From Propionibacteriaceae bacterium (lineage in GTDB: Bacteria; Actinomycetota; Actinomycetes; Propionibacteriales; Propionibacteriaceae): a stretch of 64,000 nt of DNA. The translations under genes were made by a program, and so were the position numbers. The notes under the pieces are model-generated. The model was not told where the DNA came from and ran no database searches. It saw only the letters and a program-made list of their open reading frames with translations. Positions within the stretch are counted from its first letter, which is position 1. Each line of letters begins with the position of its first letter. The stretch spans positions 1 to 64,000 of the forward strand of contig WRIC01000004.1 in assembly GCA_009782915.1 (NCBI GenBank), given 5' to 3'. This document shows, piece by piece, positions 38,723 through 39,949 of this stretch.

Positions 38723-38949
38723 ACTCTTCTCCAAAGGTAGTCATGAGGATCCAGTGGAACCACAATAGATGGGATAATTACATCAGTGTAACCACTAGAT
38801 GTGGTGATTCTACACGTTGTCGTGATGTGGTCAACAACCATGAATCACTAGGAAAGGAAATTCACCATACCCGTCAATGAAAATGCCGTGTCACTAGCGG
38901 TGTTGATGAAAAAATCTTGTCCATCTCCATGGGCATGTCGGCGTGTTGC

Positions 38950-39075
38950 TCACGGCAAAGGGGTGTTCGGTATGGATGAGAATCCCACTACCATCCCCCA
39001 AATCATCACAGCAAAAGTCAGGCTCACTGTGACCAACTGAGCGATCAAACGAGCTTTTACATAAGCTACCTTCAT
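38950..39075 (-). CDS. Small membrane protein, putative SOS-induced division inhibitor
   Basis: 41 residues from ATG 39075, with GAAAGGTAAC as ribosome site. Sequence starts MKVAYVKARLIAQLV and has one hydrophobic segment (LVTVSLTFAVMIWGMVVGF). LexA boxes at 39087-39102 and 39130-39145 lie directly upstream, divergent from lexA. In other bacteria this position holds damage-induced division inhibitors (Rv2719c, DivS), and SidA of Caulobacter is an equally small membrane protein. The function here is inferred from position and regulation; homology was not recognised. Confidence 0.55.
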   Translation of the reverse strand: MKVAYVKARLIAQLVTVSLTFAVMIWGMVVGFSSIPNTPLP

Positions 39076-39086
39076 GATGTTACCTT

Positions 39087-39102
39087 TCGTACGGTTGTTC
39101 GT
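39087..39102. promoter_or_regulatory. LexA (SOS) box
   Basis: TCGTACGGTTGTTCGT matches the actinobacterial LexA consensus TCGAAC-N4-GTTCGA at most positions. It lies 11 bp upstream of the 41-residue membrane ORF, overlapping its probable promoter. Confidence 0.7.
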
Positions 39103-39129
39103 TTATTATGTAACATGCCTGCGACATTG

Positions 39130-39145
39130 TCGTACATTTGTTCGC
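39130..39145. promoter_or_regulatory. LexA (SOS) box
   Basis: TCGTACATTTGTTCGC matches the same consensus with two differences. Central in the gap between the small ORF and lexA, it could serve either gene. Confidence 0.75.
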
Positions 39146-39203
39146 TATCGGCGTGTCGTATATTTATCAAACACCACACGTACGACGAAAATTCCCTCGA
39201 CCC

Positions 39204-39219
39204 TCGAACAATTGTTTGA
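39204..39219. promoter_or_regulatory. LexA (SOS) box of lexA
   Basis: TCGAACAATTGTTTGA matches the consensus with one difference and lies 31 bp before the lexA start, which indicates autoregulation. Confidence 0.85.
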
Positions 39220-39250: not shown

Positions 39251-39949
39251 ATGACATCAACCAGTAATACTTCAACGCAGGGGTCGCGTCGCTCACCAGG
39301 TTCGATCGCTGATGAGTCTCTTCGCAACATCGACCAACTCACCTTGCGTCAACGTCAGGTTTTGTCCGTGATACAAAACTCCGTTTCTACTCGCGGTTAT
39401 GCTCCATCTGTTCGTGAAATATGTGAAGAAACAGGGCTATCGAGTCCATCGTCGGGAGCCCATCAACTGCGTGCCCTAGAGAAACGAGGGTTCATCCGTC
39501 GCGACCCGAAACGACCACGTGCCATGGAGTTGTTGGTGCCAGCTGACGATGGCGCTGTGCCAGGTGGGAGTTCCTCTTTCGTCTCAGTGCCTGTGGTCGG
39601 CAGAATCGCTGCTGGCGCTCCTATCACTGCCGAAGAGAATCACCAGGACACCTTTGCCCTCCCAGCGCAGTTGGTTGGCTCAGGCACCCTCTTCATTCTT
39701 GAGGTGCATGGCGATTCCATGGTTGATGCTGCTATCTGCGATGGTGATTACGTTGTCGTACGTCAACAACCAACCGCTGAGAATGGTGAAATCGTTGTGG
39801 CCTTGCTCGGTGAAGAAGCCACAGTGAAAGTCTTGAAACGAACCCCAGGTCAAGTATGGCTCCTGCCCCAAAACCCGCTGTACTCCCCTATTGATGGCAA
39901 CCAAGCAACAATACTGGGCAAGGTGGTCTCAGTTTTGCGTCGAGTATAA
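39251..39949 (+). CDS. lexA: SOS repressor LexA
   Basis: 232 residues. Winged helix: [20 protein letters not shown]. The self-cleavage site Ala-Gly is in [10 protein letters not shown], the catalytic serine in [15 protein letters not shown] and the lysine in [12 protein letters not shown]. Represses DNA-damage genes until RecA-stimulated autocleavage. Three LexA boxes lie in the upstream gap. Confidence 0.96.

Follow-up and report, generated by a model that had tools for sequence, protein, structure and literature searches.

Does the open reading frame of only 41 codons that lies divergent from lexA in a Propionibacteriaceae MAG encode a functional protein, and what would such a protein do? 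The window, which is the whole stretch of 64,000 nucleotides that was analysed, lies within contig C4 of an assembly of 1.64 Mb that is 93.5% complete. The nearest named matches of its lexA are Propionibacteriaceae MAGs, several of which presumably originate from termite-gut samples, judging by their isolate names. The neighbours of the open reading frame are lexA on one side and, in its own direction, nrdR and a gene for a class II ribonucleotide reductase. A palindrome upstream of nrdR-nrdJ, CCACTAGATGTGGTG at window positions 38780-38815, may be an NrdR box. We propose that the product of the frame is probably a reduced descendant, without LysM, of the SOS division inhibitors of the lexA-linked ChiZ/Rv2719c type, and that it would delay septation through an FtsW-type target.

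The open reading frame and its predicted protein

The features of the locus are listed below in window coordinates.

38950..39075 (TGA included), minus strand: open reading frame for a 41-residue single-helix membrane protein, MKVAYVKARLIAQLVTVSLTFAVMIWGMVVGFSSIPNTPLP, identified from reading frame, profile, alignment and AlphaFold2
38953..38982, minus strand: juxtamembrane tail FSSIPNTPLP (F32-P41), with the motif F[LF]x[VI][SP][ND]xP from the genus and Propionibacteriaceae alignments
38983..39048, minus strand: hydrophobic helix core, about residues 10-31, within the modelled helix 2-33
39083..39088, minus strand: ribosome-binding site GAAAGG, at the same place as in relatives
39087..39102, no strand: LexA box 1, TCGTACGGTTGTTCGT, which begins 12 bases upstream of the ATG
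39105..39133, minus strand: possible promoter ACGACA-17-CATAAT, a weak sigma-70 match by consensus only
39130..39145, no strand: LexA box 2, TCGTACATTTGTTCGC, by box match
39204..39219, no strand: LexA box 3, TCGAACAATTGTTTGA, lexA-proximal, by box match
39251..39949, plus strand: lexA, divergent from the open reading frame (Pfam LexA_DNA_bind 1.6e-23, Peptidase_S24 3.6e-33)

The open reading frame consists of 41 codons between an ATG start and a TGA stop. The next in-frame stop is nine codons 5' of the ATG, and there is no further in-frame start between them. Therefore, the protein cannot be longer than 41 residues, its N-terminus is fixed, and a longer product extending upstream was ruled out. 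The ribosome-binding site, which the earlier note had called strong, is located 7 nt 5' of the ATG and matches AAGGAGG at four of seven positions, which makes it adequate rather than strong. The single membrane helix claimed by the same note is borne out by a hydropathy of 2.24 and by the AlphaFold2 model, which contains one helix formed by residues 2-33 (mean pLDDT 86.6) followed by an eight-residue tail. Lysines 2 and 7 and arginine 9 precede the helix, and no charges follow it; this distribution predicts an N-in/C-out topology. The tail segment FSSIPNTP fits the family motif with one departure, a serine in place of leucine or phenylalanine.

The 41-residue sequence has no match in Pfam, LysM included, and only eight residues follow the helix. 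No significant family was found in Pfam and NCBIfam for this sequence or for its LysM-less relatives, and a search of the PDB with an 80-residue relative as the query gave no match. The surrounding 10 kb is overlapped by 115 open reading frames of at least 30 residues; thus, the frame by itself does not stand above chance, but its positional homology does.

LexA boxes and the SOS context

LexA binding is predicted at three boxes in the intergenic region, which differ from the actinobacterial LexA box TCGAACNNNNGTTCGA at two (39087), two (39130) and one (39204) positions. LexA operators between the two genes had been noticed before, but they had been counted as two instead of three. The three-box layout is common to most members of the genus, and the distance from box to ATG is conserved at ~26-28 nt in near relatives. 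A stretch beside box 2, GACACGCCGA, located between boxes 2 and 3, is common to three aligned genomes (L002, L003 and L005). In the candidate promoter, the -35 element shares bases with box 2, and the -10 element is closely followed by box 1; two promoter-like sites were found, compared with 0.7 in shuffled sequences. The sequence TCGWACNNNNGTTYGW occurs at only four places in the genome. Two of them are at this locus, and the other two are at SRAP/DUF6504-dnaE2-like loci (C1:10683-10698, L192, and C27:1415-1430, L195), named from a reading of their translations, which are separate copies with a near-perfect LexA box each. The presence of LexA boxes at these loci indicates that the motif fits the SOS set of the genome.

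No match to recA was found in the window assembly; without recA, the SOS switch would not operate normally. However, each of the other 18 genus genomes contains recA. Neither MiaB nor its homologue RimO, whose genes flank recA in the relatives that were read, has a match in the window assembly. A missing contig is therefore likelier than the loss of recA, and the possibility that SOS is dead in the window genome for want of recA was set aside. One genus assembly with 7% contamination, G006, contains two recA neighbourhoods (L223 and L224), which suggests a mixed bin. In other Propionibacteriaceae genera, a search for lexA at E 1e-40 gave no match in the five g4 genomes searched and in most g20 genomes, and in G021 there was no lexA match at E 1e-3.

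Conservation and kinship with longer lexA-linked proteins

Of the 19 genomes of the genus, 16, counting that of the window, encode a one-helix protein with a common ending, F[LF]x[VI][SP]NxP, at the lexA-divergent position. The ending has diverged in G007 and is missing from the 92-residue one-helix protein of G011, and no relative was found on the lexA-divergent strand of G004. The earlier note had staked its proposal on conservation of the frame in relatives, and the proposal survives this comparison. The relatives are 78-177 residues long, the 41-residue window protein being the sole exception, and their last ~41 residues, from 16 other genus genomes, align with it ungapped. F32, P36, N37 and P39 are invariant across ten genus members. 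In a profile search based on the relatives, with the window sequence withheld, the frame comes first among the 1891 open reading frames of the window (E 4.7e-7, next best 0.19), which confirms the coding frame of 41 residues beside lexA. The frame is still first when the most similar relative, L005, of 80 residues, is also left out of the profile (E 0.0022, next best 0.09).

Comparison of the last 20 codons with those of L005 identified 4, 5 and 15 differences at codon positions 1, 2 and 3, respectively (pS 0.95, pN 0.22). The excess at third positions demonstrates that the peptide has been under constraint, and from these alignments it is clear that the constraint acted during the history shared with the relatives. 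It could, however, pre-date the truncation. This bears on the explanation that the frame is a non-functional, decaying remnant of an ancestral inhibitor, whose N-terminus disappeared as the genome shrank. The window assembly is indeed the smallest in the genus (1.64 Mb, compared with 1.7-3.3 Mb), and the missing N-terminus, the leucine-to-serine change in the motif and the weaker boxes are consistent with decay. Nevertheless, the frame is intact, the deletion is in frame, and the start codon, ribosome-binding site and all three operators have been kept; the start, the ribosome-binding site and the box distance align with those of relatives of 80 and 81 residues. The last seven residues are identical to those of L005, even though six of the seven codons differ, all synonymously. 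Furthermore, another small genome, G163, encodes an independent short form of 62 residues that starts just before an LTERG motif (L052), which indicates that N-terminal trimming occurred more than once. We consider decay unlikely. As the sequence comes from a MAG, the short form could be a misassembly, although misassembly would not be expected to favour an in-frame join with both start and end preserved.

The descent of the window protein can be followed through the proteins that occupy the same position in other actinobacteria. In Nocardioides, Kribbella-like bacteria, Cellulomonas, Jiangella and others, the position holds a protein composed of a variable N-terminus, an LTRRGR motif, a helix and a LysM domain. 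The full-length Kribbella-like form L026 matches Pfam LysM at 9.7e-9 and NCBIfam YneA at 3.8e-11, the latter below its cut-off. These ChiZ/Rv2719c-type proteins agree with the earlier assertion that the locus has the position of damage-induced division inhibitors. A home-made profile built from LysM-bearing loci was used for scoring, some loci being cut short; in a mixed set of 89 loci, it found LysM at 60, and those without LysM were mostly from Propionibacteriaceae. The same profile found LysM at none of 101 Propionibacteriaceae loci. An LTRRG-like motif precedes the helix at 55 of these loci, 42 carry the juxtamembrane motif, and 67 have either, whereas the opposite-strand control gave two and zero for the two motifs. 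The juxtamembrane motif reads F[LF]x[VI][SP][ND]xP[LVI] in 37 Propionibacteriaceae rows; since a looser pattern was used to select these rows, the figures for conservation are biased toward the motif.

The LTRRG motif is absent from the window protein and present in its congeners G005, G007, G009, G012 and G017. All of these except G007 carry LTRRG and the tail motif together, and thus link the LysM-type and LysM-less forms. The putative homology between the window protein and the LysM-bearing proteins is based on its position and on these intermediates, and not on direct similarity. The genus splits into two groups, one with LTRRG and one in which it has been lost. In the LexA tree, the window falls within the LTRRG-less group (97/89 support), among species with proteins of 78-171 residues. 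Therefore, the loss of the N-terminus is derived in the window lineage; the cytoplasmic N-terminal part has disappeared from the window protein, and the start codon, ribosome-binding site and operators have stayed. In the DNA alignment, the truncated N-terminal region is too diverged for the end points of the deletion to be placed.

Proposed mechanism and comparison with known inhibitors

Like the window protein, ChiZ/Rv2719c-type proteins of Mycobacterium and other actinobacteria are encoded divergently from lexA behind LexA boxes and contain one helix. They share the LTRRG-transmembrane region with the intermediates in the window protein's family. The window protein differs from them in lacking LysM, LTRRG and the cytoplasmic domain, and, as the earlier note had recognised, it is much shorter (41 residues, compared with about 140-250 in the loci read). 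The LysM of ChiZ appears to be unnecessary (PMC3989709). DivS of Corynebacterium glutamicum, compared by description, is an SOS-induced division suppressor without LysM that is encoded near lexA (PMC3989709, PMC6851548). SosA of Staphylococcus, also compared by description, is encoded divergently from lexA, has one helix and no LysM, and requires conserved residues in its segment just outside the membrane (PMC6851548). It belongs to another phylum and, at 77 residues, has a long outer part, but by analogy its need for these membrane-proximal residues is the closest parallel to the motif described here. The Bacillus inhibitor YneA, which is SOS-induced and has a single helix, binds FtsW through this helix, at TM7, and AlphaFold 3 models suggest a similar contact for ChiZ, SosA and SidA (PMC13396833). 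YneA requires its LysM, which the window protein does not have: deprived of LysM, the YneA helix still localises but no longer inhibits (PMC13396833). A tail of fewer than ten residues might therefore not suffice.

Based on these comparisons, a mechanism can be proposed, in which a division role is likely by analogy. LexA bound at boxes 1 and 2 would repress the open reading frame. DNA damage would lead to LexA cleavage, which would free the promoter and enable synthesis of the 41-residue protein. The protein would insert into the membrane with its basic end inside and its tail outside. Its helix may then dock on a late septal wall synthase, most likely FtsW, as would be expected by analogy from YneA and SidA and from the complexes predicted for ChiZ and SosA; septal wall is synthesized by FtsW/FtsI, and the window genome encodes an FtsW/RodA family protein (C4:72285-73337). 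The outer motif IPNTPLP probably acts at the outer face of the membrane, so that septal wall synthesis would pause and septation would be delayed. The losses of LTRRG and of the N-terminus, the serine in the tail and the two mismatches in each of the two proximal boxes count against this proposal.

Small SOS-induced membrane toxins, such as TisB, offer a different comparison. The small size of the window protein and its single hydrophobic helix under predicted LexA control would also suit a toxin or stress peptide that depolarises the membrane and is not a divisome-specific inhibitor. We regard this as very improbable, since a conserved outer tail, and an ancestry among longer proteins encoded beside lexA that include a cytoplasmic part, are more in keeping with a protein-protein contact. 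The least probable explanation is another SOS-controlled role at the envelope or septum, for example that of a divisome-associated adaptor that does not inhibit division, for which there is room in that our literature search found no tested member of the LysM-less family, but the characterised lexA-linked Gram-positive genes of the same architecture that are named in PMC6851548 all encode division inhibitors.

The lexA-linked kind of membrane protein is known, and the unusually short variant is new; a search of the literature on lexA-linked proteins in Propionibacteriaceae found no papers. If the window protein is a reduced division inhibitor, it seems to be the most strongly reduced member of a family thought to pause division after DNA damage. 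It is debated by what means small membrane proteins of the SOS response arrest septal wall synthesis: YneA needs LysM, SosA lacks it, and ChiZ may not need it. Propionibacteriaceae provide a natural deletion series beside lexA, in which LysM is gone family-wide, a conserved motif lies just beyond the membrane, and the cytoplasmic part is missing as well in the window protein. The series thus offers a sharp test of which part inhibits, and suggests which small part may be enough. We speculate, tentatively, that in Propionibacteriaceae the active role passed from LysM to the motif and the cytoplasmic part became dispensable, so that the inhibitor could consist of a helix and an outer motif of ~9 residues. 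The locus also draws attention to a set of very small genes that may escape standard annotation.

The likeness in size to SidA of Caulobacter, an SOS-induced membrane protein of 29 residues that acts on FtsW (PMC4211646), had been put forward in the earlier note. The resemblance is in size only: SidA comes from an unrelated organism, and common descent is unsupported. The relatives reveal the window protein as a shortened member of a ChiZ-type lineage, which reduces the comparison with SidA to an analogy.
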